From assembly GCF_001742145.1 (NCBI RefSeq), contig NZ_CP015749.1, positions 2,976,001 to 3,040,000 of the forward strand: a DNA stretch of 64,000 nt. Direction: 5' to 3'. The notes under the pieces are model-generated. The model was not told where the DNA came from, made no database searches, and saw nothing but the letters and a program-made list of their open reading frames with translations. Position 1 is the stretch's first letter, and each line of letters starts with the position of its first letter. This document shows positions 4,036 through 58,714 of this stretch, in pieces. Source of the stretch: Pectobacterium parmentieri. GTDB lineage: Bacteria > Pseudomonadota > Gammaproteobacteria > Enterobacterales > Enterobacteriaceae. The translations under genes were made by a program, and so were the position numbers.

Positions 4036-4048
4036 GGTGTAGCTCCTG

Positions 4049-4825: not shown

Positions 4826-4840
4826 CTCTTTCTCTCCTGA

Positions 4841-6178
4841 CTACTGACCGCGGATGGCCCAAAGCTGCATATCCAGTTCCGGGAACTCGCCAGCAATGTG
4901 GAACGCCAACGTATTGCCAGATACCAGCACCTGCCAGGCGGGGCTTTGCCTATCCAGTTGGAAATAGCTGTAACCCGCGTGATAAGGCAGTTGACGCGGT
5001 GCAACCGGCAGCGGCAGCAGTGGAATGCCAGGCAGTTGTAGGCTGATCAGTTCGCGGATCTTCTCGCTGGAGGCAATCTTCGTTTGTTGCAGCAGTTGTT
5101 TACGCAGATGCTCCTGTGGCATACGCGCACGCACCGCCAGTACAAACTCGGCGCTGGCCATCAATTCCGCATCGCCGACCATCGCCACCATCACACCATA
5201 CGGCTGTTTCTTCAGTTGGATGGAAACGGCACGCGGTGACAGTACGGTGCTCAGGGCTTGACGCAGCGCCATCATCAGCGGCTCAAAGCTGGCCTGCTGA
5301 TGTTCATGACGATAGGCCGGGAATTCAGGCGGCAGGCGCGACTCATCGGTAAACGTCATCAGTTCACCACACAGCTCGACTAACGCCTCGTGCAGGCGCT
5401 CGGGGTGTAGCGTGCCAAGGCGGGCCAGATGCGACAATCTGGGCTGGGCGCGGTTAAGCAATTGCAGCATCATGAATTCCGCTACGTCCGCCACGCCCTG
5501 TTGCCCCGGTGCGGCAATACGCTGTGCCAGACTGCGCGCACGTTCGGCAACCAGACCGGCAGATTCCCCCAGGAAGCGTTTTAAGGCAGGGATCGCCGTA
5601 ACGCTGATGCTGCATGGCATAAAATTAGGATCCAGGATCAAGCCGCCGTCAGGGCGTTTATCCAGAATGTTGGCAATCGCCAGCGAGGCATAGGCGCTGC
5701 GATCGTCACGATCGAGCATCAACCGCAGACTAACCTTGCCGACCTCCAGAGAAACGATATCGCCGCCGTCGCTATGCAGATCGCGCACATCATGCCGGTG
5801 TGATTGCAAACGGCTGGCGATCCCCTGTCCCGGTTGGCCCACTTCGCTGACGCCATTTACCGCCAGCGGTAGTGCCAGATACACTTTCTGGTTTGCCAGC
5901 GCGACGTCGGTGATCTCCAACGGCAGCGGCAAGGCGTCATCGCCCGGAATATTGAACACAGTGCCATCAGGCATCACCCCGCTGGCATTAACCAGTGCGA
6001 TGCGGCCAAAATTGAGGTATTCCTCATTAATCTCCAGCGATTGCAAGCCATAAAAATAATCACTCAGTGCGCTGAGACGCGCATGCAATGCGTAATCGGT
6101 ATGTCTTTGCTGCTGTTGAAAATGCTGCGGTTTAATGAACAAACCTTCCCGCCAGATAATGCGATTGCGACTCGACAT
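4841..6178 (-). CDS. tssK: T6SS baseplate adaptor TssK
   Basis: Trimeric cytoplasmic adaptor that links the baseplate (TssF/G/E) to the membrane complex (TssL/TssM). The 445 residues match the family length. The N-terminus reads MSSRNRIIWREGLFIKPQHF, the characteristic TssK opening in which the GLFIKPQHFQQQ stretch forms part of the shoulder domain. It lies between tssJ (2-base gap) and tssL (15-base gap), the standard order. No irregularity is seen. Confidence 0.96.
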   Translation of the reverse strand: MSSRNRIIWREGLFIKPQHFQQQQRHTDYALHARLSALSDYFYGLQSLEINEEYLNFGRIALVNASGVMPDGTVFNIPGDDALPLPLEITDVALANQKVYLALPLAVNGVSEVGQPGQGIASRLQSHRHDVRDLHSDGGDIVSLEVGKVSLRLMLDRDDRSAYASLAIANILDKRPDGGLILDPNFMPCSISVTAIPALKRFLGESAGLVAERARSLAQRIAAPGQQGVADVAEFMMLQLLNRAQPRLSHLARLGTLHPERLHEALVELCGELMTFTDESRLPPEFPAYRHEHQQASFEPLMMALRQALSTVLSPRAVSIQLKKQPYGVMVAMVGDAELMASAEFVLAVRARMPQEHLRKQLLQQTKIASSEKIRELISLQLPGIPLLPLPVAPRQLPYHAGYSYFQLDRQSPAWQVLVSGNTLAFHIAGEFPELDMQLWAIRGQ

Positions 6179-6180
6179 AA

Positions 6181-6705
6181 TTATTCTTCTTCTTGGTCTT
6201 TTTTGATTTCGACTTCATCCCGGCGCAGGTGCACGAGGATCTGATACGTTTGCCCGACATTTTTTAGCTTGATCACCTTGCGCCATTCCGCACTTTCCGA
6301 ATCCGCATAGCGAGCGACCACGCCGAGGTAGTGCACCTTTTCATCCAACGCTTCTGGCGGCAGGTATTTGAACTGCCCCGGCAACAGCGTGTAGTCCTGA
6401 TGACTGAGGTAATTCTTGGCCAGCGCCTTTTCGATATCCGTCGTGATCTGATCATAATCCGTGGCTAACAGGCGAGAATCTTCCGCCAGCAGGACCAGTT
6501 GGAATTCGATAGGTGCAGCTTCACCACTTTCATTCGGGTTAACGTCCGGTTCCGCCAGCAGGCTAAAACCCACGGTAGAAGGCTGATGATTGTTGCTGCC
6601 CACCTGGATATCAGGATTCGCCGCGACCTGCGCCATTTTGCTCAGCGTGGAACACCCCGACAGCACGACCATCAGCGAACATAAGCAAAATGCCCGCAGC
6701 ATCAT
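6181..6705 (-). CDS. tssJ: T6SS outer-membrane lipoprotein TssJ
   Basis: Outer-membrane-anchored lipoprotein that binds the periplasmic part of TssM. A lipoprotein signal peptide with lipobox LSGC puts the lipidated cysteine at residue 18. The mature part is a ~155-residue transthyretin-like fold, with the usual 'PxEFQLVLL' type core near residue 65. The ATG start overlaps the tagH stop as ATGA (the first of two adjacent ATGs), with an AGGAG site inside the tagH end, which implies translational coupling. The acidic tail (EIKKDQEEE) is slightly unusual but harmless. Confidence 0.95.
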   Translation of the reverse strand: MMLRAFCLCSLMVVLSGCSTLSKMAQVAANPDIQVGSNNHQPSTVGFSLLAEPDVNPNESGEAAPIEFQLVLLAEDSRLLATDYDQITTDIEKALAKNYLSHQDYTLLPGQFKYLPPEALDEKVHYLGVVARYADSESAEWRKVIKLKNVGQTYQILVHLRRDEVEIKKDQEEE

Positions 6706-7922
6706 TTTTGCTCCTGCTGTTGGCGCACGGCACGGTCATACGCCTGCGCATACACCTGATGGAACAGTTTCTGGAAACCTTGCTGGCGTGGCGACGTCAA
6801 TTCTCGGTAGTAGTGCTGATACATTTGCCATGCCCAGCCGTCATCCGCCGCCAGTGGTTCACCACTACGGCGATAATGCTCAAAGCGGCTGAGCAGCGCG
6901 TCTGGCGAAAAGGCCTGAAGAATATTTTCCAACGCCGCAGCAATCGCTTGCTGATTCGCGATGTGATGCACCCGCACATTGTTCAACACTTCTTCCACCG
7001 CAGCAGGTGCAGACAGGTGAACCGGGCTTTTCCCTTCGGCAAACAGCACCGACAGCGTATCCGCATAGCCCAGCCCCAGACGCAGCGGGTTATCTTCAAT
7101 CGGGCGTAAATGCGTGTCCGCCAGTGCGGCCTGTTCCGTCTGCAATGTCAGCAGCCCTTCAACCATCGCACGCAGGCTTTTCCCCATTTCTTCCAGCATT
7201 TCACGCAGGCGAGCATCATCACCCGGCTGAAGCGACAGCCCCAGGCCACGCATCAACGGAGCCAGCGAAGTGCCGTCGCTGTACCCTTCCAGCCCTTCTC
7301 CCGCGTAGGGGGTATTGATGCTCGGTAATTCGACAAATTTCTGATCCATGGTGTCCTCAACAGCAGAAAAAGAAGAAAGAGAGGTCGTGAGCGATTCTCC
7401 GCCTCTCTCACTGTCTGATGGCAATAGTGGCTGGCTCTGTTCTTTCTGTAGCGCCCACAGCGGGTCATTCATCACGGCCGCAGTATCTGCACTCTCTGCC
7501 GTTCGCCCTTTTTTCTTTTCACTTAACCAGCCGCCTAACACATCGTCCGTGCGCAGCCCTAACACCTGATCGATATCCTGTTCCGTCGTGGGATCGCCGA
7601 TGTAAACGCCCAGCCGAAAAGGCCCAATCACCAATTCATCGCCGTGCGACAAAATGACGTTGCGATCCCGCCCAATCGGCGACAGCGAACCGTTAATAAA
7701 AGACTGCCCGCTCAGATCGCATAGACTGAAATAACCATCGGTCATTTCGATACGTGCATGCGCGGGTAACACCGATCCCAATCGATCGCGTAGCTGCCAC
7801 TGATCTTTTTCCGATGCACCCAGCGTGCCACCGAGGTGATCAAACTGATGCTGCACCTGAGAATTGATATCGAGCTGCTCACTGTTGAGCACAACCAACG
7901 TGAGTGGATGGGTTACGTTCAC
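6702..7922 (-). CDS. tagH: T6SS FHA-domain protein TagH (Fha)
   Basis: Phosphothreonine-binding scaffold linked to post-translational control of T6SS assembly in systems that carry PpkA/PppA. I chose the GTG at 7920-7922 (406 residues) because an AGGAG lies 5 bases upstream and it falls just after the tssG stop; the longer frame to 7988 would overlap tssG by 64 bases. The FHA domain (about 1-100) contains the expected DG.FSLCDLS.. and 'SFINGSLSPIGR' features. A low-complexity linker follows, then the T6SS-specific C-terminal domain (about 225-400). No kinase or phosphatase gene is seen in this window. Confidence 0.92.
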   Translation of the reverse strand: MNVTHPLTLVVLNSEQLDINSQVQHQFDHLGGTLGASEKDQWQLRDRLGSVLPAHARIEMTDGYFSLCDLSGQSFINGSLSPIGRDRNVILSHGDELVIGPFRLGVYIGDPTTEQDIDQVLGLRTDDVLGGWLSEKKKGRTAESADTAAVMNDPLWALQKEQSQPLLPSDSERGGESLTTSLSSFSAVEDTMDQKFVELPSINTPYAGEGLEGYSDGTSLAPLMRGLGLSLQPGDDARLREMLEEMGKSLRAMVEGLLTLQTEQAALADTHLRPIEDNPLRLGLGYADTLSVLFAEGKSPVHLSAPAAVEEVLNNVRVHHIANQQAIAAALENILQAFSPDALLSRFEHYRRSGEPLAADDGWAWQMYQHYYRELTSPRQQGFQKLFHQVYAQAYDRAVRQQQEQK

Positions 7923-7924
7923 AT

Positions 7925-8923
7925 TTACTCCTGCACACAAATCGTCACATAGGGATCCGCTGGCGGCTGCCCGAGAAAGCTGCTCCACCCCAAACGGCTG
8001 CTTTGCTCGCTGCCCAGACTTAAGCCCTTAGCTTCATCTTCTGCGAAACCAAGACGGAGATCCCAAGCCAACTGATCGCGAAGAATGAAAGAGACAAAAC
8101 GCACCAGCGGCTGAAAATGTTCACCGTTGGGCAGAAAGCTGAGAAAGCGGCTAAAACTGAGATTGCCGATCTTGAGCAAGAACTTGCCGGCACAATCATT
8201 CACTTTGTCACCGATGACAAAATCACCGCCCAGCATCATGTTTCCTTTTCCCAGCCGGTTCTGCTGCCCTTCATGAATGGGAACGCGGCGGTGCTGCCAG
8301 GCCAAGACGGCAACATCATCCAGGTCAAAACAGTGAATAACTAACCCGGCGACCACTTCAGGGGAACGGCTGGGGCTTGCCAACACCCCAGCGTAGGAAA
8401 GCATCTTGGCGCGGTTAACCGGCAGACTGTCGCGCACGGCATCATTGCCCAAGCCCACGAGCGCAAACATCAGACGGGAGAATCCATCCTCCCCCTCATT
8501 CTGAAAGCGGACGTGATAGCGATATTTCCGCCATGCGCGGTGCAACAGCGTGAGTAAGCGATGATGAAAGAAATCGAGAAACACGCCCAGCTTCTGTTCG
8601 CCCTGCGCGTATTCCCAGGCCAGTTCTTCGAGGTAATAGCCGGGCATCGGCGACTGACTACCGTGCAGGCCCAGGAACGCGACTTCCAATTCCTGACGGC
8701 CCTCTTCATCACACCCCACCCGCAAGATATCGCTGGGGTGAAAACCGATGGAGGCCGTGGAGCGAAAACGCAGACGTTCCTGTTCAGGGCGAAAATCCAG
8801 CTCTTGTTCCAGATCCACGCCTTCCAACTGGTTGAGTAATTCCACCAGTTGGAAAAAATTGAAGCGTGAGACATCCTGACGGAACGTTACATCATTGAGT
8901 GTTGACCTATCTGTACCGGCCAT
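7925..8923 (-). CDS. tssG: T6SS baseplate protein TssG
   Basis: Wedge component of the T6SS baseplate; two TssG with TssF form the core bundle that TssK trimers bind. The 332 residues are typical. The N-terminal FNFFQLVELL segment is the family signature, with further conserved blocks FLGLHGSQSPMPGYYLE and FFHHRLL. The start ATG follows a GGAG site located inside the end of tssF, with a 37-base overlap, suggesting coupled translation of the TssF-TssG pair. Confidence 0.95.
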   Translation of the reverse strand: MAGTDRSTLNDVTFRQDVSRFNFFQLVELLNQLEGVDLEQELDFRPEQERLRFRSTASIGFHPSDILRVGCDEEGRQELEVAFLGLHGSQSPMPGYYLEELAWEYAQGEQKLGVFLDFFHHRLLTLLHRAWRKYRYHVRFQNEGEDGFSRLMFALVGLGNDAVRDSLPVNRAKMLSYAGVLASPSRSPEVVAGLVIHCFDLDDVAVLAWQHRRVPIHEGQQNRLGKGNMMLGGDFVIGDKVNDCAGKFLLKIGNLSFSRFLSFLPNGEHFQPLVRFVSFILRDQLAWDLRLGFAEDEAKGLSLGSEQSSRLGWSSFLGQPPADPYVTICVQE

Positions 8924-10653
8924 CGGTAGCGCTCCTTGTTATCGATGTTGACCACTTCCAACAGGTGGAAAGCGTTGACGCTGGCGTATAGCGAGAAAAA
9001 GTGCGCCAGCACCGTGCTAAACAGGTACAGTTCTCCTTCACTGGAAAACGCGGATTGCCGTACAGACAGGATTGATTTCAAGCCACGAACCGGCATCCCC
9101 TGAACCAGGCGATCGATAGGCGTGGTTTCGATAGACTCGATACCCGCCAGACGCTTACGCGAGGCTTGTTCCGCCTGCTTGTCGTGCAGCGCTGGGAAAT
9201 CGTAGGTACGTAGGATCTGTACCAACGCATCACGCCGCAGCAGCGACACATAGTTCAGCGACAGGTTGGAGATCAGCGTCCAATGCAGGCTGCCATCCAT
9301 CGCAGGCCGCAGTGGCCGCGTTGGCCGTAACAAATTACGAAACGTCGCGAAAGACGGTGAGTTACCGGCTGGTACACAAATCGCCCCAACGGGCAGTTGT
9401 GCCGCACGCGACCGATTGGTACAGGTCAGAGTCACCGAGATGGATTCATCCAAATCAATGACTTCCCGCTCATCGCCCCGCACAAAAGAGAGCATGTGTT
9501 CAAAACCATTGCCGTTCACCGCTTCTCTTATCCGAATACGGTAATAGAGCGCCAATCGCCCTTTAGCTCGCTCGATTTGGTGCTGAAAGCTCTCAAAGGG
9601 CTGATACGTGCGTGGGATACCCCGAGCACGACCTGAATTGCCTTCAACCCACCCCTCAACCTTATCCACAGAGAAGATTTCAAAGCTATCGGCGTTACGG
9701 TAACTGGCCTTCAGCGGGTAATCCGTCTGGCGTCCGCTAAGGTTGATCGGCTCGCTATCGTGTCGGAAGAGATTGATTGCAGGCACGCAGTTGAGCATGA
9801 ATGAATCAGGACGGATCTTCAGCTCCGCTGGCAACGGACGATCAAAACAAAAATGCAGACGGAACTCCGTTACCGTCAGCGGAAGATCCGGCCATACCGC
9901 GCCAGCAAGTTGGAAAAAGAGAAAACTTTCAGGAAAGCAAAAGTATTCCTGCAGGATGCGGTAGCCCGAATAGACATTGCCGGGATACGGTAATAGCGCG
10001 TCTTCTCGCTCGAAGCCGACCGTCTTCAGCACGCTGGCCTCTTGACGGAAGCGTTGGCCATCGACTTCCAGCTCAATATGCGACAGTTGGCTGGCGATCC
10101 AGAAATAGAGTTCGTAGGCCGTATAGGTATCGCCGCCCAGATAAAAGCGCAGCTTGTCGAGTTGCAGATCGCTTAGCGATAACGGGCCATGCAACCCTAT
10201 ATCCAGCGTAATGGTGGAAAGATCGTTACCGCTTTGTACCTTAATCTCGCGGATATCCGCCGGATAAATCCAGATATCGTGACAGGTCTGAAAATGGCAG
10301 ACCACATCATCAATCGGCAGGCTATCGAGTTCACAACCGCGCTCAACAAATGCGGGCTGTGCAATCGCGCCGGGATGCACCGAAAATTGCATCATCGTCA
10401 TGCTCGGTACTGGACGCAGGTAATTAGGCCAGAGCATGCCCAGCAGACCGTGTGTCAGTTCCGGAAATTCATCCTCGATCTTCGCCCGCAGGCTCCCTGT
10501 CAAAAAGGCGAACCCTTCCAGCAGTCGCTCAACGTCTGGATCCGTGGTTTGTTCTGACAAAAATCGGGTAAGCTCAGGGTGCGCCTTGGCGAATTCGCGC
10601 CCTTGCAGGCGCAAGTAAGTCAGCTCATCCCTGAAAAAATGTTCCAGTGACAT
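8887..10653 (-). CDS. tssF: T6SS baseplate protein TssF
   Basis: Major wedge protein of the baseplate, equivalent to phage T4 gp6. The 588 residues open with the recognisable YLRLQGREFAKAHPEL and DPDVERLLEGFAFLTG blocks of VasA/ImpG family proteins. It is located between tssE (2-base gap) and tssG (37-base overlap). Length and motif content look complete, with no frameshift. Confidence 0.96.
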   Translation of the reverse strand: MSLEHFFRDELTYLRLQGREFAKAHPELTRFLSEQTTDPDVERLLEGFAFLTGSLRAKIEDEFPELTHGLLGMLWPNYLRPVPSMTMMQFSVHPGAIAQPAFVERGCELDSLPIDDVVCHFQTCHDIWIYPADIREIKVQSGNDLSTITLDIGLHGPLSLSDLQLDKLRFYLGGDTYTAYELYFWIASQLSHIELEVDGQRFRQEASVLKTVGFEREDALLPYPGNVYSGYRILQEYFCFPESFLFFQLAGAVWPDLPLTVTEFRLHFCFDRPLPAELKIRPDSFMLNCVPAINLFRHDSEPINLSGRQTDYPLKASYRNADSFEIFSVDKVEGWVEGNSGRARGIPRTYQPFESFQHQIERAKGRLALYYRIRIREAVNGNGFEHMLSFVRGDEREVIDLDESISVTLTCTNRSRAAQLPVGAICVPAGNSPSFATFRNLLRPTRPLRPAMDGSLHWTLISNLSLNYVSLLRRDALVQILRTYDFPALHDKQAEQASRKRLAGIESIETTPIDRLVQGMPVRGLKSILSVRQSAFSSEGELYLFSTVLAHFFSLYASVNAFHLLEVVNIDNKERYRWPVQIGQHSMM

Positions 10654-10655
10654 AA

Positions 10656-11087
10656 TCAGATCATTCTGTAATGGCGGTGGCTATCCATATGGATATTGAA
10701 AGAGGCAACCTGCTCCAGGTCTTCCAACCTGACCCGAGCGGTAACCTGAAACGACATCTCCATCGGATTCGATAAATAGTCCGATGTGTCGACATCCACA
10801 TGAACAATTCGAGGTTCAAAGCGACAGATACACTGCCGGATCGCCTCCCGGATTTTCCCCCGAATATCCGCACCACCCTGCGTCGCGTCATTAAAATCAA
10901 TCACGCCAAGCTCAGGTGCGCTGCGACAATTTCCGGGCCGGGTGTTGAGCACATTGTCCAGTTGACGCTTAACGGACTCGATCAGTGCTTCAACGTCCGT
11001 TTCAGGGGAGGAACGACGCCCCTCCCCACGGATACGATCAAACAGACTTGCCGCGTTTCCCCTTTCCCAGGCAGAAAGAGACGGCAT
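10656..11087 (-). CDS. tssE: T6SS baseplate protein TssE (gp25-like)
   Basis: Small wedge protein homologous to phage T4 gp25; it starts sheath polymerisation. The 143 residues have the gp25-type core, with 'LDNVLNTRPGNCRSAPELGV' (about 62-81) and the conserved EPR-like segment here written FEPRIVHVDVD. The start ATG follows an AAGGA that overlaps the tssC stop region; the gap to tssC is 5 bases. Confidence 0.95.
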   Translation of the reverse strand: MPSLSAWERGNAASLFDRIRGEGRRSSPETDVEALIESVKRQLDNVLNTRPGNCRSAPELGVIDFNDATQGGADIRGKIREAIRQCICRFEPRIVHVDVDTSDYLSNPMEMSFQVTARVRLEDLEQVASFNIHMDSHRHYRMI

Positions 11088-11092
11088 AAGTC

Positions 11093-12571
11093 TTATTCCT
11101 TATCCAGACGCCCTACCAGCGACAGCTCAAAGTTTGCCCCCATGTACTTGAAGTGCGGGCGCACAGACATAGTGACCTGATACCAACCTGGTTCTCCTTC
11201 CACATCCAGCACTTTGATTTGTGCAGCACGCAGAGGACGACGGCTACGGACATCTGCCGGCGGGTTTTCCTGATCGGCGATGTACTGTTTAATCCAGGTA
11301 TTCAACTCACGTTCAAGATCCTGACGCTCTTTCCATGAGCCAATCTGTTCACGCTGAAGCACTTTGATGTAGTGCGCCAGACGGTTGATGATGAACATGT
11401 ACGGCAGTTGCGTACCCAGCTTGTAGTTGGTTTCCGCTTCTTTGCCTTCCTTGGTGTTTGGGAACACCTTCGGCTTCTGCACTGAGTTAGCGGAGAAGAA
11501 GGCGGCATTGTCACTGTCTTTACGCATCGTCAGCGTGATAAAGCCTTCTTCGGCCATTTCATATTCGCGACGATCGGTGATCAGCACTTCAGTCGGGATC
11601 TTGGCCTGAAGTTGGCCCATCGCTTCATAAACATGCACCGGCAGGTCGGTAATCGCCCCACCGCTCTGTGGACCGATAATGTTCGGACACCAGCGGTATT
11701 TCGCGAAACTGTCCGTCAATGCCGTTCCCATCAGATAGGCGGTATTGCCCCACAGATAGTGTTCGTGATCGGTGCTGATATCTTCCTTGTAGTTGAAACC
11801 CTTAATCGGGTTTTCTACCGGATCATAAGGCAAGCGAGCCAGGAAGCGCGGTGCCGTCAGCCCCAGATAGCGGCCGTCTTCAGATTCACGCAGCGAACGC
11901 CATTTCGTGTAGGCAGGGCCTTCGAAAACGGATTTCAGATCTTTGATTGAAGGCAGATCGGTGAAGCGATCCACGCCAAAGAAGGTTGGTGCAACGGAAG
12001 AGATGAACGGTGCATGCGCCATCGCGCCAACGGCGCTGACATACTGCATCAGTTTGATGTCCGGTGAGCTTTGCGTCAGCGCATAGTCACCGATCACGCC
12101 ACCAATAGGCTGACCGCCGAACTGGCCGTAACCGCTGGAATACACGTGCTTATAGAAGCCAGACTGTGAGATTTCAGGGGCGAATTCGAAATCTTCCAAC
12201 AGCTCTTCTTTCGTCGCATGCAACACCAGCAGTTTGATGTTTTCACGGAAATCAGTGCGATCGATAAGCAGTTTCATCGAACGCCAGGAAGATTCCAGTT
12301 CCTGTAATTCTTTTGCATGCAGAATCACGTCAATCTGCTTGCTAAGTTTTTTGTCCAGTTCGACGATCATGCTATCGACCAGCGCTTTATTCACGGGCTC
12401 TGCTGCATTACCGCTATCAAGAATGTTAGCAACCAGCGCGGCAATGCCCTGTTTAGCCACGCTGTAGCCTTCATCAACCGGGCTGATACGTGCTTGAGCC
12501 ATGATGTCATCAAGCAACGATCCAGAAGCACTGGCGGCTCCTGCCTGAACCTGTTCTTCAACTATTGACAT
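11093..12571 (-). CDS. tssC: T6SS contractile sheath large subunit TssC (VipB)
   Basis: Large sheath protein that forms helical tubes with TssB around the Hcp tube. The 492 residues are standard. The central ELESSWRSMKLLIDRT, GGQPIGGVIGDY and WRSLRESEDGRYLGL blocks and the C-terminal RPHFKYMGANFELSLVG are hallmarks of the family. It is preceded by a GGGAAA ribosome site and sits 32 bases downstream of tssB. Confidence 0.97.
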   Translation of the reverse strand: MSIVEEQVQAGAASASGSLLDDIMAQARISPVDEGYSVAKQGIAALVANILDSGNAAEPVNKALVDSMIVELDKKLSKQIDVILHAKELQELESSWRSMKLLIDRTDFRENIKLLVLHATKEELLEDFEFAPEISQSGFYKHVYSSGYGQFGGQPIGGVIGDYALTQSSPDIKLMQYVSAVGAMAHAPFISSVAPTFFGVDRFTDLPSIKDLKSVFEGPAYTKWRSLRESEDGRYLGLTAPRFLARLPYDPVENPIKGFNYKEDISTDHEHYLWGNTAYLMGTALTDSFAKYRWCPNIIGPQSGGAITDLPVHVYEAMGQLQAKIPTEVLITDRREYEMAEEGFITLTMRKDSDNAAFFSANSVQKPKVFPNTKEGKEAETNYKLGTQLPYMFIINRLAHYIKVLQREQIGSWKERQDLERELNTWIKQYIADQENPPADVRSRRPLRAAQIKVLDVEGEPGWYQVTMSVRPHFKYMGANFELSLVGRLDKE

Positions 12572-12603
12572 ATTCGTTTCCCTATTTCGTCAATAAACAT
12601 CAA

Positions 12604-13107
12604 TTATTCGGCGGGTTTCACCAGATCGAGCTCTTTCAAAAGCTGCTCTCTGGCTTCTTCGCTGGACAACAGATCCTGCAAACGATTACGGAATGAGGGA
12701 ATATTGCCGAGGGGGCCTTTCAGCGCGACCAATGCTTCACGTAAATCAAGCAACTTACGTAATTCAGGCACTTGTTGGGCGATGCGGTCAGGAGAAAAAT
12801 CATTCAAGCCAGCAATACTCAGTTTCACTGGCAGGTCGTCTTGGCTCTCTTCTTCAAGGCGATTTGGCACACTGAAATTCAGTTCCAGATTGGCTTCTTT
12901 CATCACGGAGGTAAAATTGTTCTTATCGATCGATACGGTCTGACGTTCTTCGATCGGCGTTTCCTCTGTGCGCCCTTTCATATTTCCCACGATCATCAGC
13001 GTCAACGGCAATTCTATTTCCGCCTGCTGACCACCAGTGGCCGGAACATATTTGATATTAATACGTTCCTTTGGTGCGACAGATGCACCATCAGTTCCTT
13101 TTGCCAT
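12604..13107 (-). CDS. tssB: T6SS contractile sheath small subunit TssB (VipA)
   Basis: Small sheath protein; first gene of the visible operon. I chose the ATG at 13105-13107 (167 residues, MAKGTDGAS…) over an in-frame GTG 24 bases upstream because it gives the usual family N-terminus. The ribosome site is weak. The conserved RINIKYVPATGG, LPLTLMIVGN and 'SFAPDRIAQQVPEL'-like (here DFSPDRIAQQVPELRKL) segments are present. The C-terminal helix used to interlock with TssC is intact. Confidence 0.95.
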   Translation of the reverse strand: MAKGTDGASVAPKERINIKYVPATGGQQAEIELPLTLMIVGNMKGRTEETPIEERQTVSIDKNNFTSVMKEANLELNFSVPNRLEEESQDDLPVKLSIAGLNDFSPDRIAQQVPELRKLLDLREALVALKGPLGNIPSFRNRLQDLLSSEEAREQLLKELDLVKPAE

Positions 13108-13964
13108 GTGTCTATACCAACGTAAGGGCACTCGGGCCCGGAGAAGTAAAGTCGATTCCTACCAAAAACCCACCATAATCCATAAGCACGGCAGTAATTC
13201 GGCAAACAAATAGCGTATTTGTTTTTCGACCAGCGAGATGAAATAAATTAAAATCGAATTAAAAAAACCATAATAAAACCGTAACTTTACGATTTACATC
13301 GGTGTGAAAGACTCGCACCAAGAAGGAAGTTAAATACATTCATATTTTGAGTTTGGATCATACACACAACACAAACACATGGTCAACGCTTATATAGGAG
13401 AGCAAGTAAAGAGAATAACTAAAACAAAAAACAAATTAAAAACAAAGACATAGATAAAACTTAAGTAAAAAAAACCACAAAAAAACAGAATAAACCAGTG
13501 AGTTTCAATTAGCGGAAAAAGAATATATTTCGCGCCTTTTAATTTCGTTAAAAACGAAATACTTAGTCAGCTAGTAAATTACTCAAGTTACAAACACTCT
13601 ATTTATTTTAATTTAGTAAAACCATTTACCCTTTATTTTTTACTTTTGTCAGAATAAACAACCTGATTACCTTATGGGATTATTTCTTTATTAAGAAATA
13701 AATATGAGATAGTTTAGCAATCACTTTCCTTTTAATGAAAATTAAAAGATTTTTACACCATAAAAAACAACACAATCAGTATAAAAGACCAACCCATGAA
13801 AATCAGTGGCATTTCATAACAAGAATTATCAACAAAGGCAGTTAGATGATCTTTTATACGCCCGTTTCAGGTTAAAAAATGGTAGTCATTCTGCAATTTA
13901 TCCTACAAGAGAATCTTCCAAATGATACGTGAGCCCACTGCACAACAGAGAGGATGATGAGGCA
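13108..13964. other. AT-rich intergenic region upstream of the T6SS operon
   Basis: About 860 bases with no convincing gene. It is very rich in A and T compared with the flanking tss genes and has many runs of A. The tss promoter should lie here, reading leftward. I looked for a sigma-54 -24/-12 element (GG and GC separated by 10) in the right orientation near tssB and did not see a clear one, so vasH may act on other promoters. No hcp gene is present, although hcp commonly lies next to tss clusters. Nothing more is supported. Confidence 0.6.
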
Positions 13965-51048: not shown

Positions 51049-51948
51049 CTACCGATCGGGCTCGCGGTAATCTTGCAGAAAATTCAGAAACAGACGCACC
51101 ATGGGAATATTCACGCTGCGCTTCAGGTAACTAATAGCGAAGGTTCTTTTCAACTGCTCTTCTAGCGGGATCACGGCGACGTCGTAAGCCGTCAGGCTTT
51201 TGGCGACAGACGAACAGAGGAAGACCACGCCGGACAGGTTCATCACCAGATCCATAATGATGTCCATGTTGCTGCATTCGCGGAAATAACTGGGGTTGAT
51301 GCCCTGTCTGGTGAAAGACTCAGAAACGGCGGCATGCTCCCCCGTTCCTTTCTGCGGCACGATCAGCTTTTCTTTTACCAGTTGCGGCAGGCTTAGCGTG
51401 CTCTTCGATGCCAGAGGATGCGACGTCGCCATAACCGCCACCATGTCATCAATCTGGCAAATGGTGTGGTGAAATAAAGGATCGCTTAGGTACTCATCAA
51501 AAGGCGTCGAAAAAGACAGGTGGATATCACCATTGCGTACCCTTTCCAGTAAATCGGTGCTTACGCCATCGATGAAAGAGATATCTATATTGGGGTAGGC
51601 TTTCTGAAATAGGTTAAACACATTGTAGTGCGCCAGACGATTAAAAATCGGGATCACACCAACCAGTAACGCACCATCCGAGCTTTCCTCATAGCTACTG
51701 ACAAACTGCTCCAACTCATAGTGTTCTTTAATCATCCCCTGAATTTTGTCAGCAAAGATCTTCCCAAATGGCGTCAGAGAAAACTGTCGGGTGGTTCTGT
51801 TGATCAGCTTTCTTTCCGTTTCACTCTCCAGGCGTGCGATCTCCTGTGACAAAAAAGCCTGAGAAATATTCAGCGCCTTTGCCGCCTTGGTGAAACTCCC
51901 GACCCGGATGAGTTCCTGATAATAAATCACACGCTTTATGCTGAACAT
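51049..51948 (-). CDS. LysR-family transcriptional regulator
   Basis: A LysR regulator of 299 residues: N-terminal helix-turn-helix (GSFTKAAKALNISQAFLSQEIARLE, residues about 17-41) and a two-lobed periplasmic-binding-like effector domain (about 90-295). It is divergent from the exported hydrolase gene at 52225 and shares its promoter region with a CRP site. It most likely regulates the hydrolase, and perhaps the respiratory genes downstream; effector unknown. Confidence 0.92.
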   Translation of the reverse strand: MFSIKRVIYYQELIRVGSFTKAAKALNISQAFLSQEIARLESETERKLINRTTRQFSLTPFGKIFADKIQGMIKEHYELEQFVSSYEESSDGALLVGVIPIFNRLAHYNVFNLFQKAYPNIDISFIDGVSTDLLERVRNGDIHLSFSTPFDEYLSDPLFHHTICQIDDMVAVMATSHPLASKSTLSLPQLVKEKLIVPQKGTGEHAAVSESFTRQGINPSYFRECSNMDIIMDLVMNLSGVVFLCSSVAKSLTAYDVAVIPLEEQLKRTFAISYLKRSVNIPMVRLFLNFLQDYREPDR

Positions 51949-52224: not shown

Positions 52225-53190
52225 ATGGATTATTCGAAAGCAACAAAAATAGGATTGGCAACCTTGGCAATGATGAGCGCGACAGCAATCAATGCGGCAC
52301 AGAATCAACATGACATCACCGTAAAGCAGGAAATCACATCGGTGAAGTTAATCTCTGACGTCGTTTATTCTCAGGTATCAATGCGGGGCTATCCAAATGT
52401 TGCATTAAAAATGGATATTCTTCAGCCTGAAGCGAAGACAGCACTTCCCGTTGTGTTATTCATTACCGGCGGCGGCTTTATTAACGCCAATAAAGATAAT
52501 TATCTGCAACAGCGCCTGAGCATTGCTGAAGCGGGCTATGTGGTTGCCAGTATGGAATACCGTGTCGCCCCTACCGTACTTTTCCCCTCGCCGCTGGAAG
52601 ATGTAAAATCCGCCATTCGTTATCTGCGGGCAAACGCGAAAAGATTCGGTATTGATGGTCAACACGCTGCTGTTTTCGGTTCCTCGGCAGGCGGCTATCT
52701 GGCGGCGTTTGCCGGGACGAGCAATGGCTCAAAAACCTACGATAAAGGCGAGCATCTTGACCAAAGCAGTGATGTCCAGGCCGTGATCGACTTCTATGGA
52801 TTATCCGATCTGACGCTCGTTGGTGAAGGCTTCCCTGACGATGTCGTGCAGAAACACGCGTCGCCTTCTGCAACTGAAGCTATCTGGGTCAACGGCACTG
52901 CGGTGTTTAATGAAGGAGGCGCAATCACCCGTTATCCAGACAAAGCAGCGGCCGCAAACCCGATTAACTTTATCAACAGCACAACGCCTCCGTTCCTGAT
53001 CATGCATGGTACGAACGATACGATAGTTTCTCCACGCCAGACCGAACGACTGCATCAGGCTCTGATAGCGAAAAATATCGAATCGACCTATTACAGCGTT
53101 AACGGCGCAGAGCACGGTGGGCCACACTGGCTACAACCGGCAATCATGCAAATTACCGTCCGCTTTCTTGATAAACACCTAAAACCCTGA
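52225..53190 (+). CDS. Exported alpha/beta-hydrolase (carboxylesterase, HSL/BD-FAE type)
   Basis: Esterase of 321 residues with a signal peptide (cleaved near INA|AQN, residue 24), so periplasmic or secreted. Oxyanion loop FITGGGFI (79-86), nucleophile S154 in GSSAGG (152-157), and probable Asp264 (HGTND) and His296 (GAEHGG) complete the triad. Preceded by AAAGGA. It resembles the acyl/feruloyl-esterase-like hydrolases rather than lipases. The terminator after it shows that it is transcribed apart from the reductase genes, but both have a CRP site. Confidence 0.87.
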   Translation: MDYSKATKIGLATLAMMSATAINAAQNQHDITVKQEITSVKLISDVVYSQVSMRGYPNVALKMDILQPEAKTALPVVLFITGGGFINANKDNYLQQRLSIAEAGYVVASMEYRVAPTVLFPSPLEDVKSAIRYLRANAKRFGIDGQHAAVFGSSAGGYLAAFAGTSNGSKTYDKGEHLDQSSDVQAVIDFYGLSDLTLVGEGFPDDVVQKHASPSATEAIWVNGTAVFNEGGAITRYPDKAAAANPINFINSTTPPFLIMHGTNDTIVSPRQTERLHQALIAKNIESTYYSVNGAEHGGPHWLQPAIMQITVRFLDKHLKP

Positions 53191-53485: not shown

Positions 53486-53507
53486 AAATGTGCACTTAGT
53501 CACATTT
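53486..53507. promoter_or_regulatory. CRP (or CRP/FNR-type) site upstream of the reductase cluster
   Basis: AAATGTGCACTTAGTCACATTT; matches the CRP consensus except for one base in the left half (TGTGC). It is 193 bases before the ferredoxin start. It suggests catabolite control. Confidence 0.75.
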
Positions 53508-53699: not shown

Positions 53700-54398
53700 A
53701 TGGAAGAATTATCTCGCCGTCGTTTTATTGCCTATATGGGAAGTGCGATTGCCGTTAGTGGAAATATCGGTCTCGCACACGCGCAAAATGAGCCAGAAAA
53801 AACGCAGGGTAAATTAGCCGTTAAATATGGTTTATTACATAACGAAATGCGTTGTATTGGATGCAAAGCCTGTATCAAGGCCTGCAAAGAGACGAATAAC
53901 GTCCCTGATGGCGTAGCCCGGCTGGACATACTGCAAACCGTCGATATTCCCGCCGTCGAGAAAACGCGTGCCATCAAGCAATTTTTCCGTAAGTCCTGCC
54001 AGCACTGTGAGAATCCGCCCTGCGTTGCCGTCTGTCCAACGGGCGCGTCCTTCAAAGATGCGCTCACTGGCATTGTCGACGTCAACGATAAACGGTGCGT
54101 AGGCTGCCGCTACTGCATTGCCGCGTGCCCTTATCATGTGCGCTTCATCAACCCCGTCACGAAAACGGCAGATAAATGCAATTTTTGTCGCGAATCCAAT
54201 CTGGCCGCCGGGAAACAGCCCGCTTGCGTCGAGATTTGCCCCACCAAAGCCTTGGTATTTGGCGACCTCAACGATCCTGAGAGCAACATTGCCAAGATGA
54301 TCGAGAGCAACGCGACCTACCGTTCCAAGGTTTATCTGGGTACCGAGCCTCAACTCTATCGTATTCCTGGAAAACGAGGGGTAATCGACAATGCATAA
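53700..54398 (+). CDS. Tat-exported 4Fe-4S ferredoxin subunit (NrfC/DmsB-like)
   Basis: Electron-transfer subunit of 232 residues from ATG 53700 (a GTG 15 bases earlier is possible). Twin-arginine signal SRRRFI (5-10) followed by a hydrophobic stretch and AHA cleavage site indicates folded export to the periplasm. Four cysteine clusters: CIGCKACIKAC; CQHCENPPCVAVC; CVGCRYCIAAC; CNFC…CVEIC. These fit four [4Fe-4S] clusters. It is coupled to the NrfD gene by an 8-base overlap. It should carry electrons from the membrane quinol to the exported flavoproteins encoded 2-3 kb downstream. Confidence 0.93.
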   Translation: MEELSRRRFIAYMGSAIAVSGNIGLAHAQNEPEKTQGKLAVKYGLLHNEMRCIGCKACIKACKETNNVPDGVARLDILQTVDIPAVEKTRAIKQFFRKSCQHCENPPCVAVCPTGASFKDALTGIVDVNDKRCVGCRYCIAACPYHVRFINPVTKTADKCNFCRESNLAAGKQPACVEICPTKALVFGDLNDPESNIAKMIESNATYRSKVYLGTEPQLYRIPGKRGVIDNA

Positions 54399-55353
54399 TG
54401 CCTTCACGTTTGACACGCTGGTATGGGATTGGCCCATCGCCGTTTATCTTCTTCTGGTCGGCATTTCAGCGGGGATGGTATCGCTGTCCCTGCTGCTCAG
54501 GCACTACGTCCCCATCGAATATAACGGCAGTAATCGCATGATCAAAGCCACCGCCATCGTGGCACCGCTTGCCGTGATCTTCGGGCTGGTGATCCTGATT
54601 TTTCATCTGACTAAACCGCTGACCTTTTGGTATTTGATGGTCTTTTACAATCCCACCTCCATCATGTCGCTTGGGGTGATGCTCTTTCAGGTGTATTTCA
54701 TCGTGATGCTGTTATGGCTCATCACGCTTTATCATGACGTATGGCTGACTCAGCTTGAGACCGTCTGGCACCGCCCCGCGCTGGCTGTGCGAGCACGTAA
54801 GCTGGCGGCGATTATCGTTAAAAATGCCGCGGTGATTGAAAATCTGCTGCTGGTACTGGCAGTCCTGCTCGGTTGCTATACCGGCTTTCTGCTGTCCGCG
54901 CTGAAATCATTCCCGTTACTGAACAATCCCGTCCTGCCCGTCCTGTTTCTGGTATCCGGCACCACCTCCGGTATTGCCGTCATGCTGCTGGCCAGCGCAT
55001 GGGGGCGTCATACCTCAGGGAATTCACTCTCCCTGCATTTCATCCATCGTGTAGAAACTCCGGTGGTATATGCCGAACTGTTCCTGCTGCTGGCGTTTTT
55101 TGTCGGGCTGCTGCTTGGCGGTGGGCAAAAAGTTATCGCCGCTCAGACCGCACTGTCAGGATTCTGGGGCAACGTATTTTGGATTGGCATTATCGGCATC
55201 GGCATTGTGATCCCTTCTATTGTCAATCGGGTACGCAAACCATCTGCTCATTCTGGCAAAGGGCAAGTGATTATCTTAGCCGTCATGAGCCTGTTCGGCG
55301 TGTTCCTGCTACGACTGTTCGTGCTTTATGCCGGACAAATGACGGTGGCTTAA
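54391..55353 (+). CDS. NrfD/PsrC-family membrane quinol dehydrogenase subunit
   Basis: Membrane protein of 320 residues with about eight to nine helices and no heme motif. The N-terminal DWPIAVYLLLVGISAGM and the later 'LLLGCYTGFLLSALKSFPLLNNPVLPVLFL' type stretch (positions 163-192) are typical of NrfD/PsrC. It takes electrons from quinol at the periplasmic face and passes them to the 4Fe-4S partner. Its ATG overlaps the ferredoxin stop (ATGCATAA), implying a stoichiometric complex. The MFS gene starts immediately after its stop. Confidence 0.93.
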   Translation: MHNAFTFDTLVWDWPIAVYLLLVGISAGMVSLSLLLRHYVPIEYNGSNRMIKATAIVAPLAVIFGLVILIFHLTKPLTFWYLMVFYNPTSIMSLGVMLFQVYFIVMLLWLITLYHDVWLTQLETVWHRPALAVRARKLAAIIVKNAAVIENLLLVLAVLLGCYTGFLLSALKSFPLLNNPVLPVLFLVSGTTSGIAVMLLASAWGRHTSGNSLSLHFIHRVETPVVYAELFLLLAFFVGLLLGGGQKVIAAQTALSGFWGNVFWIGIIGIGIVIPSIVNRVRKPSAHSGKGQVIILAVMSLFGVFLLRLFVLYAGQMTVA

Positions 55354-56730
55354 ATGAATACGTCATGGGTCTTATTCTGGATTGCCTCAACCACCTTTTT
55401 CATGCAATCCCTGGATACCACCATGGTGTATATCGCTATTCCGGCTATCGCGCAGTCGCTGCACCAGCCGGTACTGCATATGGAAACGATCGTAATTTCT
55501 TACATTGTCACGGTCGTCGCGTTTACGCCGGCCAATAGCTGGCTGGCGGAACGACTCGGAGAAAGAAAAACCTACCAGATCGCGATTGCCATTTTCACAC
55601 TCGGATCGCTGCTGTGTATGACAGCCACCACGCTCGGCAGCTTAAGCATTTACCGCTTTATTCAGGGCATCGGTGGTGCGCTCATGCTGCCCATCATCAG
55701 AACCGTGGTATTGCGTACTACGCCGCAAAGTCTGAAATTACGCTTTCTTAATCGGGTAACCTTGTTGGGATTACTTGGCACTCTGCTGGGCCCAGTGTTC
55801 GGTAATATTCTGGTTAGCTTTCTCTCTTGGCAGGCTATTTTCATCGTGAATATTCCGCTGGCTTTCGTCTGCTTTTTTCTGGCGACAAAATATATTCCTG
55901 CTTCGACAATTAAAGAAGCGTCACGCACGGGTGCCTACGAAGTCGCCTTTCCCATTTTGATGTTATTTCTCGTCGCTTTCATACTCACCAGCGCCACGAA
56001 AAATATATTGCCAACGTTCGTCATGTTATTTCTGTCTTGTAGCACATTGGGTTTGTTTTTTCTTTACTACCGACAGCATCTCATTGCAGAGACCGTATTA
56101 TTTCCGCGCGCCCTGTTTGGTATCAGAACCTTTTCTGTCGGCGTTATTGGCGGCATCGCGACGCGCACGCTACTGGCATCAACACCCGTCGTACTCTCAC
56201 TCATGCTGCAAACGACGCTGGCCTGTCAACCCGCAGAAACCAGCCTGATTCTGCTGCTCTTTTCCAGTGGTGCACTGCTGTCAAAGCTGCTGTTCGAGCC
56301 ACTAGTCAAGCGTATCGGCTATCGGCGGCTGTTGATGCTGACGACCAGCGTAACGTCGCTATGCGTTCTCGCGCTGAGTGTCGCCGTGCAAGAGAGATCG
56401 ATTCACCTCATTAGCATTATCGCCATGCTGTTAGGCGTGCTGATTTCGACCTTATATTCAGCCGAAAGCACGCTGGCCTTCAGTAATCTGAGCGACAGCA
56501 CATACCATAGCGGTAATAACCTGTTAACCATTAGCCAATTACTTTCCGTCATGCTCAGCATGACGCTGACATTTCCAATCTTACGCTTTCTCTCTCAGTT
56601 TGAAGTCTTCTTCAATCTTAACCCTTTCAGCCTGTTGTTTTTATTACTCGGCATTGGCTTACCGGTTTGCTGCCTGATATTCAGGCCCCTCAATAACGAC
56701 GACGGTTGTCACTTTATTCATGGGAGATAG
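55354..56730 (+). CDS. MFS transporter (DHA2/EmrB-like)
   Basis: Membrane carrier of 458 residues. The opening ASTTFFMQSLDTTMVYIAIPAIA and GIGGALMLPIIRTVVLRTTP are typical of the 14-helix DHA2 drug-efflux group, although the length is shorter than usual (~500). It is fused by position to a respiratory gene set, starting right after the NrfD stop. It may import or expel the substrate or product; both the direction and the substrate are unknown. The stop is 65 bases before the next start. Confidence 0.85.
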   Translation: MNTSWVLFWIASTTFFMQSLDTTMVYIAIPAIAQSLHQPVLHMETIVISYIVTVVAFTPANSWLAERLGERKTYQIAIAIFTLGSLLCMTATTLGSLSIYRFIQGIGGALMLPIIRTVVLRTTPQSLKLRFLNRVTLLGLLGTLLGPVFGNILVSFLSWQAIFIVNIPLAFVCFFLATKYIPASTIKEASRTGAYEVAFPILMLFLVAFILTSATKNILPTFVMLFLSCSTLGLFFLYYRQHLIAETVLFPRALFGIRTFSVGVIGGIATRTLLASTPVVLSLMLQTTLACQPAETSLILLLFSSGALLSKLLFEPLVKRIGYRRLLMLTTSVTSLCVLALSVAVQERSIHLISIIAMLLGVLISTLYSAESTLAFSNLSDSTYHSGNNLLTISQLLSVMLSMTLTFPILRFLSQFEVFFNLNPFSLLFLLLGIGLPVCCLIFRPLNNDDGCHFIHGR

Positions 56731-56795
56731 CTTTATTTATGGGAAATAACGTGGTTATTCACCGTATTCATTCAAAAACGCATGGAACTATTGAT

Positions 56796-57143
56796 ATGAA
56801 AATATGCTCAGGAATTCTTCCGCTTTGCTTGTTATTCGTAATCGGAACCGCCGTTGCACAAGAAGGGAATTTTAAAGCGGGCACTTATTCCGCTGCCAGA
56901 CAAGGCATCGGCGGGGATGTCACCGTTACGCTTGATATCGATGCGAAAGGGAAAGTCCTCAAATCAACGATTGATGCCCCGGAAGAGACCCCCGAAGTCG
57001 GCGGGGAAGCGGCAATCGAACTCGCAAAAGCCATGACCGAAAAGCAAAGCATACAGGTTGATGGGGTGTCCGGTGCCACGATGACCAGCGAGGCAGTGAA
57101 AGAAGCGTCGGAAGATGCGTACTCGCAGGCTAAGGCGAATTAA
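56796..57143 (+). CDS. Small exported FMN-binding-domain protein
   Basis: FMN_bind-domain protein of 115 residues from ATG 56796; upstream ATGs exist in frame (56739), but MKICSGILPL begins a clear signal peptide with cleavage near AQ|EGN (22). The flavinylation motif SGATMT (92-97) puts covalent FMN on T97, by analogy with NqrC/RnfG and flavocytochrome-type proteins, and needs an ApbE transferase encoded elsewhere. Most related reductases carry this domain fused to the FAD part; here it is a separate subunit. It would relay electrons from the Fe-S protein to the FAD reductase. Confidence 0.9.
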   Translation: MKICSGILPLCLLFVIGTAVAQEGNFKAGTYSAARQGIGGDVTVTLDIDAKGKVLKSTIDAPEETPEVGGEAAIELAKAMTEKQSIQVDGVSGATMTSEAVKEASEDAYSQAKAN

Positions 57144-57184
57144 TACCGTGTTGTAAGAATATCAATAACATCAAGGAAAACATC

Positions 57185-58714
57185 ATGAAACGCTTCAGAA
57201 AAAGTGTACTCGCGACGCTCTGTCTCTCGATGATGGGCTGGTCTACCGCACAGGCGGCGGACGCAGCAAAGCCGGAAATCCCGAAAAGTGCCGACATCGT
57301 TATTATCGGTGCAGGCGCGGCAGGCACCTCGGCAACCATGGCCTCCGCAGAAAAAGGGGCGAAAATCGTCTTACTGGAAAAACAACCGATTGTCGGCGGC
57401 ACGGGTAACTTTGCCGAAGGTATCTTCGCCGCCAACAGCAGCATGCAGAAACGTCAGGGGATTGTGGTGACGCCTGATATGGCCTTTAAGACCATCATGG
57501 AGTACAGCCACTGGATGGCAAATCCCTTCGTGGTGCGCGCCTTCGTGAACCGCTCAGCGGACACGATTGAGTGGGTGAAATCGAAAGGCATCAAATTTGA
57601 ATACATCGGCCCCGGCGGCCCCGGCGGTATGTTGACCTGGCATGTGATTGACGGCCCCGGCCACGGACGCCACCTGATCAAGACATTCCACGAGCAGTTT
57701 AAAAGTATGGATGTCACCACGCTGGTGAAAACGGCGGGTAAAGATCTGGTCGTGAAAGACGGCAAAGTGACGGGCGTCATCGCACAAGATAGCGACGGCA
57801 ACACCTTCCAGATCGACGCCAAGGCCGTCATCATCGCCACTGGCGGCTATGCCAACAATAAAGAGATGCTGCAAAAATATGCCGCTTTCCCCGACACCAT
57901 TATGGTTGGTAACGTCGGTAAAGACGGCGACGGGATCAATATGGCCTGGAAAGCTGGTGCAAAACCGGACGGTCTGGGTCTGCTGCAAGCGTATCGCCCC
58001 GGCCTGCCAGACTACGCCCCTAACTCTCACCTGCTGGCCGCCGCGCGTCAGCCTTATCTGTGGGTTGATCAACACGGCCGCCGCTTTACCGATGAATCCA
58101 ACGTCATTATCTGGCCACACTCCGGCAACGCGCTGTCAAAAGCGGGCGGCATCATGTACTCCATTTTTGACGAAACCTCCCGTAAGCATTACGTTGAAGA
58201 CGGCATTGACGTGCCGATTGGCGAATGGGTGATCGCCAACACCAAGCTGACAAAATTCGATAGCGAATTTACGAAAGAAAGCCAGAAAAATCGCGGCTTC
58301 GTCTTCAAATCTGCCACCGTTGACGGGCTGGCAAAAGAGATGGGCGTTGATGCCAGCGTGCTGAAGCATACGTTGGAAGAAAACAACACATTTGCGACGC
58401 AAAAACGGGATGAGGTGTTCAACAAAAACATGGATTACCTGCGCCCGATAAAAACCGGTCCATTCTATGCTGTGAGAATGCAGCCCGCCGCGCTGGGTAC
58501 ACTCGGCGGCGTGAAGATCGACGAGAAAATGCAGGCGATAGATAAATCCGGTGAGGTTATTCCGGGCCTGTACGTCACGGGTAATGATGCTGCCGGAATG
58601 TATGGCGATACCTATGATCTGCTGTTAGGCGGCGGCACGTTTGGCTTTGCGCTCAACTCCGGTCGTATCGCGGCAGAAAGCGCACTCGATTATATGAAGT
58701 TCGGCAAGAAATAA
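57185..58714 (+). CDS. Exported FAD-dependent reductase (flavocytochrome c / UrdA-like, no heme domain)
   Basis: Flavoprotein of 509 residues: Sec signal (cleaved near residue 25), FAD dinucleotide motif GAGAAG (42-47), fumarate-reductase-like capping domain, and C-terminal FAD segment GLYVTGNDAAGMYGDTYDLL. No CXXCH heme site is present, so it needs an external donor. In fumarate reductases this end reads G(A)NRLGGN with a substrate-binding Arg; here it is GDTYDLLLGGG, so fumarate is unlikely to be the substrate. Other enoate acceptors (urocanate, acrylate, cinnamate types) are possible. It lies 41 bases after the FMN protein, in the same operon, and ends at a strong hairpin. Confidence 0.88.
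   Translation: MKRFRKSVLATLCLSMMGWSTAQAADAAKPEIPKSADIVIIGAGAAGTSATMASAEKGAKIVLLEKQPIVGGTGNFAEGIFAANSSMQKRQGIVVTPDMAFKTIMEYSHWMANPFVVRAFVNRSADTIEWVKSKGIKFEYIGPGGPGGMLTWHVIDGPGHGRHLIKTFHEQFKSMDVTTLVKTAGKDLVVKDGKVTGVIAQDSDGNTFQIDAKAVIIATGGYANNKEMLQKYAAFPDTIMVGNVGKDGDGINMAWKAGAKPDGLGLLQAYRPGLPDYAPNSHLLAAARQPYLWVDQHGRRFTDESNVIIWPHSGNALSKAGGIMYSIFDETSRKHYVEDGIDVPIGEWVIANTKLTKFDSEFTKESQKNRGFVFKSATVDGLAKEMGVDASVLKHTLEENNTFATQKRDEVFNKNMDYLRPIKTGPFYAVRMQPAALGTLGGVKIDEKMQAIDKSGEVIPGLYVTGNDAAGMYGDTYDLLLGGGTFGFALNSGRIAAESALDYMKFGKK

Follow-up and report, generated by a model that had tools for sequence, protein, structure and literature searches.

The window analysed here is a 64,000-nucleotide stretch of the Pectobacterium parmentieri genome (5.03 Mb; contig NZ_CP015749.1, positions 2,976,001 to 3,040,000). 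It contains five co-directional genes at 53700-58714 on the + strand, which encode an Fe-S protein, an NrfD-like membrane protein, a major facilitator superfamily (MFS) carrier, a small protein with a flavin mononucleotide (FMN)-binding FMN_bind domain and a flavin adenine dinucleotide (FAD) protein (Table 1). Frames, domains and strands all agree with the one-directional five-part set listed in an earlier note made from the sequence alone. The NrfD frame overlaps the Fe-S frame by 8 bases, and the MFS frame starts directly after NrfD. The conserved block is wider than the five genes and also includes a divergent LysR-type gene and an exported BD-FAE esterase. A scan of all seven genes, LysR through FAD, found no CxxCH motif, in agreement with the cytochrome-free set of the earlier note; by the same scan, the block contains none of the heme proteins of the Nrf system, and an nrf-type locus sits elsewhere in the genome.

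Table 1. Features of the conserved block, in window coordinates.
Feature	Position	Strand	Basis
LysR-type regulator gene, divergent from esterase	51049..51948	-	Pfam LysR_substrate + HTH_1
Exported BD-FAE esterase, possibly FaeD, accessory	52225..53190	+	PF20434 176.7 bits; signal peptide by eye
CRP-like site TGTGCACTTAGTCACA	53489..53504	.	~200 bases 5' of Fe-S gene
NrfC-like Tat-exported Fe-S protein, four [4Fe-4S] cysteine sets	53700..54398	+	TIGR03149; 16 Cys
NrfD-like membrane quinol dehydrogenase	54391..55353	+	TIGR03148
MFS carrier, MdtD-like	55354..56730	+	PF07690 122.3 bits
Small exported FMN_bind protein, predicted FMN attachment at Thr of DGVSGAT	56796..57143	+	Pfam, motif
Exported VprA-like FAD reductase, terminal enzyme	57185..58714	+	PF00890, NCBIfam, structure, residues

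The Fe-S protein carries the twin-arginine translocation (Tat) motif SRRRFIAYMG and 16 cysteines in four groups, all invariant in seven aligned rows that include the NrfC of the genome's own nrf-type operon. It scored 324.4 bits against the NrfC model TIGR03149, under the cut-off of 377.6; the NrfD protein scored 460.5 bits against TIGR03148, above the cut-off of 347.6. In a phylogenetic tree, the 11 NrfD proteins from loci with the Fe-S/NrfD/MFS module formed one branch (support by the Shimodaira-Hasegawa-like approximate likelihood ratio test, SH-aLRT, 96) against 29 NrfD proteins from nrf operons, each of which adjoins a five-CxxCH neighbour. The window thus shares a four-cluster NrfC-like protein and a recognizable NrfD with the donors of NrfABCD, but its NrfD belongs to a separate clade, has no heme partner and is accompanied by MFS and flavin genes instead. 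Descent of the Fe-S/NrfD/MFS genes from an NrfCD pair is the best explanation. The second, nrf-type locus encodes a pentaheme protein, NrfC, NrfD and an NrfE-like protein; NrfA would lie beyond the fetched stretch and was not searched for. Public orthologs of 54391-55353 are named 'nitrite reductase subunit NrfD', a label that we flag as misleading.

The FMN protein has a Sec-like signal peptide, judged by eye, and an FMN_bind domain (55.3 bits; Pfam cut-off 22) with the motif DGVSGATMTS. The flavinylation motif D-x-x-[ST]-G-A-[ST], as given in a review (PMC12052999), was kept in all nine aligned orthologs; in Brenneria izbisi, Thr is replaced by Ser, a poorer flavin acceptor according to the same review. 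The structure model was of modest quality (predicted local distance difference test score, pLDDT, 70.1), and its best match was the crystal structure of an FMN-bearing domain. Two ApbE proteins are encoded in the genome. One has a lipoprotein-type signal (by eye), which answers the call of the earlier note for an apbE check; the other lacks a signal peptide and adjoins a cytoplasmic FMN-FAD protein, an arrangement described for Klebsiella pneumoniae (PMC12052999). Domain, motif and the exported ApbE place the small protein in the ApbE-flavinylated FMN_bind class, with FMN attachment predicted from the motif. The cytoplasmic FMN-FAD protein (G000:C1:1256170-1258831; L012, L014) lies in a frame of 998 residues ahead of the signal-less ApbE and retains the fumarate-reductase residues; it resembles the soluble fumarate reductase of K. 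pneumoniae. Public orthologs of 56796-57143 are misleadingly named 'TonB family protein' or 'fumarate reductase flavoprotein subunit'.

The FAD protein bears a Sec-like signal peptide (by eye), matched FAD_binding_2 (PF00890) with 208.6 bits and was modelled (pLDDT 87.7) with the urocanate/fumarate reductase fold common to UrdA and Fcc3. It scored 230 bits against TIGR01813 (flavocytochrome c / fumarate reductase), under the cut-off of 285.45. Its best NCBIfam match was the VprA model NF053717, at 392.8 bits against a cut-off of 600; the protein is therefore VprA-like, not VprA. FccA residues H365, E378, R381, R402, H504, H505 and R544, which we take to have catalytic roles and to include those for the carboxylate and for proton transfer, correspond to Y270, L284, A287, I308, L437, G438 and Y477 in the window protein, and Q363 is retained. 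The titles of mutant structures name most of these FccA residues, but not H504 or R544. Loss of R402, H504 and R544 together with the lack of any heme motif of its own sets the protein apart from flavocytochrome c. The alignment was able to detect the FccA residues, since all seven are present in the cytoplasmic FMN-FAD protein and four of them (R402, H504, H505 and R544) in L163, a fused protein of Mesosutterella. A plasmid-borne L. plantarum protein above the VprA cut-off (783.8 bits) showed the same losses with Tyr at the R544 position, the pattern also found in the window protein, although its alignment near Q363/H365 was shifted between two alignments. The two proteins share 15 near-invariant family residues without counterpart in FccA or the cytoplasmic protein. 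VprA of Lactiplantibacillus plantarum reduces vinylphenols (PMC10295242) and likewise has a LysR gene nearby, but the window protein differs in being exported and in having Fe-S, NrfD and FMN partners.

Loci were fetched for the best 80 of 157 members of the FAD family. All five genes occurred together in 17 of the 80, all from Enterobacterales (Pectobacterium, Symbiopectobacterium, Dickeya, Brenneria izbisi, Edaphovirga and one record labelled Serratia), so the co-occurrence that the earlier note had wanted checked is conserved. The window gene order in single intact frames was seen in 12 of the 17; of the other five, L025 has its MFS gene split over two frames, L055 starts with the FAD gene, and several genes are fragmented in L028, L029 and L052. 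The last three are Pectobacterium sp. PL152, whose many split frames are perhaps assembly errors, and two Symbiopectobacterium records with perhaps decaying genes. In the record labelled Serratia marcescens (JADMXW01; L023 and L058), both the block and a further FAD gene are almost the same as their Symbiopectobacterium counterparts, and the record may be mislabelled. The ratios of nonsynonymous to synonymous substitution rates (dN/dS) between the window and seven Pectobacterium loci (L015-L021) were 0.024-0.036 for FAD, 0.040-0.060 for Fe-S, 0.053-0.107 for FMN, 0.093-0.137 for MFS and 0.104-0.128 for NrfD; the five genes are under purifying selection within Pectobacterium. The FAD protein shares 97-98% identity with its counterparts in named Pectobacterium records, and a full-length copy at 97% or higher was found in 20 of 24 genus-level genomes (own genome included), with one further copy (G021) in two pieces. 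Sixteen other genomes of the order gave only distant FAD matches, of at most 106.9 bits versus at least 1122 for full-length copies.

Relatives of the FAD protein use a different electron carrier. In a tree of 77 FAD proteins and an outgroup, from which four loci lacking a full frame were dropped, 16 Enterobacterales proteins formed a clade and 14 of them had the module. The sister clade (SH-aLRT 87) comprised 17 proteins from Geobacteraceae, Shewanella, Deferribacterota and others, 16 of them with a neighbour containing at least three CxxCH motifs within 400 bases. NrfCD plus flavin therefore occupies the place that heme has in these relatives, most of which adjoin a multiheme cytochrome. The module label required two changes on the FAD tree, with Edaphovirga L055 in another FAD lineage. 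L058 and L066, the proteins closest to L055, lack a module next to the FAD gene, but their genomes carry it elsewhere (L023 and L022, respectively). Two sets of the Fe-S/NrfD/MFS genes are present in Acerihabitans (G781; L154, L155), and each adjoins a fused FMN-FAD protein that carries the flavinylation motif. In the window, FMN and FAD are separate genes and the UrdA-type fusion is absent; it occurs in other genomes only. For electron transfer from FMN to FAD, the natural FMN-FAD fusion is the strongest evidence available here.

A single NrfCD line seems to have at least three types of FAD partner, given the single NrfD branch, the two FAD lineages and the fused FMN-FAD proteins, and Fe-S/NrfD/MFS looks like a plug-in electron-delivery unit for different FAD reductases. 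All module loci seen have the MFS gene as part of the unit, while the FAD partner varies in lineage and active-site type, so flavin is among the few features common to all versions. Several other arrangements were noted. The Acerihabitans fused proteins show yet another active-site pattern, with Tyr at the FccA R402 position, and probably act on a different substrate class. A fused Brenneria FMN-FAD protein (L153) had no Fe-S or NrfD gene inside its fetched stretch. Genomes reached via Sutterella wadsworthensis L075 (G788) and Mesosutterella multiformis L060 (G787) gave 14 and 8 FMN-profile matches, mostly in frames of ~560-750 residues, which look like many fused FMN-FAD reductases. The genomes that contain L058 and L066 have a further small FMN_bind gene next to a 455-residue FAD protein (L145 1501-3294, L146 35-1827), with no NrfCD match in the 3.3 kb covered. 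Genes for OprD/OprB-family porins lie beside FAD reductase genes at L043 (9503-10726), L077 (9708-10940), L031 (9615-10970) and L032 (5282-6679), which suggests substrate uptake via a dedicated porin.

The LysR-type gene is present in all of L015-L029 and probably regulates the block. Its divergent neighbour, the esterase, is accessory, since it is missing at L021, L025 and L055. A close homolog (76-77%) was found in both of two Dickeya genomes, and one of the two has a 44% paralog without a signal. The esterase may be FaeD, to which it is likened by description rather than by an authentic FaeD sequence. FaeD, a feruloyl esterase of Dickeya, is a secreted protein (PMC9007343) whose gene is reported from all 14 Dickeya type strains (PMC10319131); faeT, the gene of a second enzyme found with it, has been lost in D. 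zeae EC1 and A5410 (PMC8386352). The CRP-like site aligned in eight of eight upstream regions; one mismatch or fewer to TGTGAN6TCACA was found in 11 of 14 regions and two or fewer in all 14, counts for which no chance expectation was computed. The MFS carrier, at 225.1 bits against an MdtD model cut-off of 426, is the least understood part, with substrate export, product uptake and flavin export as candidate roles. By eye, from the frames and with no family search, the - strand genes at 1438-13131 elsewhere in the window resemble a type VI secretion cluster.

We infer the contacts and direction of the chain, its substrate, its physiological role and the task of the MFS carrier from the genes, motifs, conservation, carrier exchange and residue losses described above. 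NrfD would oxidize (mena)quinol from the quinol pool and pass electrons to the Tat-exported four-cluster NrfC-like protein. From there they would move to the small FMN protein, its FMN attached by the exported ApbE, and on to the FAD protein, which would reduce a C=C bond in the periplasm. Through a separate or a fused FMN_bind domain, the unit could serve different FAD reductases. This heme-free periplasmic chain, quinol > NrfD > Fe-S > FMN > FAD, running in this direction, is the reading we hold to be probable; it was proposed in the earlier note and fits every domain. The unsaturated-acid substrate proposed with it did not fare as well. Our best guess, offered tentatively, is a phenolic or other non-carboxylate plant alkene such as a vinylphenol.

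An acid substrate would leave the chain as it is. The earlier note named urocanate, acrylate, cinnamates and crotonate, plant unsaturated acids that would be reduced as in Fcc3 or UrdA, and both the fold common to those enzymes and the probable feruloyl esterase next door (ferulate is an acid) speak for it. All seven FccA positions are changed in the window protein, however, whereas the cytoplasmic protein of the same genome keeps the seven, and R402, H504, H505 and R544 are present in a fused protein from Sutterella; with a pattern nearer VprA, we regard acid reduction as improbable. Electrons might instead run backwards: a periplasmic FAD dehydrogenase would deliver them to FMN, then to Fe-S and NrfD, and finally to the quinone pool. 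In nrf operons, the NrfCD relatives take part in reduction, and the VprA-like residue pattern also argues for a reductase. The heme-linked relatives, too, resemble reductase systems such as Mrd/Mcc (PMC4427408), and reverse flow seems unlikely to us.

A variant of the favoured explanation differs in purpose alone: the quinol-driven chain would detoxify plant phenolics by reducing them, rather than support growth by respiration. The VprA-like pattern, the efflux-related MdtD-type carrier in the operon and the lack of a conserved FNR site in the upstream regions searched are in keeping with this. The presence of a quinol dehydrogenase dedicated to the chain points rather to a steady flow of electrons; we rate detoxification as somewhat unlikely, though worth keeping in view. 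Nitrite reduction by NrfC and NrfD, with the flavin genes as chance neighbours, would accord with the public NrfD annotation and with the TIGR03148 score. It is very hard to reconcile with the separate nrf-type locus and its pentaheme protein, the distinct clades of module and nrf NrfD, and the co-occurrence of Fe-S/NrfD/MFS with two FAD lineages and fused FMN-FAD proteins, and we give it almost no weight.

Several observations weigh against the proposed chain or its phenolic substrate. The FAD protein falls under the VprA cut-off, is 31% identical to a VprA-type protein and has other residues than this protein at 16 sites that are near-invariant in the family. Phenolic acid decarboxylase was found in just 6 of 15 Pectobacterium genomes. 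Three of the 24 genus-level genomes (G003, G008, G014) have distant FAD paralogs only, two relatives in the same FAD clade (L031, L032) lack an adjoining module, and the patchy esterase and the missing FNR site count here as well. The chain is at present proposed from sequences and models, that of the FMN protein being the modest one.

The closest split system is the methacrylate system of Geobacter sulfurreducens AM-1 (PMC4427408), in which an exported periplasmic FAD reductase, Mrd, is likewise encoded alongside a separate electron carrier, Mcc. Mcc is a multiheme cytochrome and Mrd has a Tat signal, whereas the window has FMN_bind and NrfCD proteins, a Sec-like signal on the FAD protein and no CxxCH protein beside it. 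UrdA and Fcc3 differ in having their FMN or heme domain fused, and the catalytic residues seen in FccA and two such proteins are replaced in the window. Five classes of membrane donors for flavinylated proteins (NapH, MsrQ, PepSY, DsbD and NQR/RNF-like) have been described by Meheust 2021 (PMC8238504). In 189 clusters of that study, FMN_bind lies close to a gene of the fumarate-reductase type, and heme/flavin substitution is described for enzymes of this type. A membrane donor feeding an exported FMN_bind protein is common to these classes and the window, but NrfD is not among the five; the main text of that paper has no match for NrfD, NrfC, 4Fe-4S or polysulfide, and its supplementary cluster lists may include the locus. 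That NrfC-NrfD-MFS-FMN forms a further donor class for flavinylated periplasmic enzymes, with the MFS carrier exporting flavin to ApbE and to the Sec-exported FAD apoprotein, is a doubtful proposal in this full form.

If the chain is real, NrfCD would be added to the bacterial routes that feed electrons to flavinylated exported proteins. The swap of flavin for heme would then extend to an entire donor unit, and the split and fused versions would serve as natural controls. In soft-rot bacteria, a probable cell-wall esterase adjoins a periplasmic reductase; it can therefore be tested whether these bacteria respire on plant phenolic alkenes, or reduce them away, in oxygen-poor tissue.

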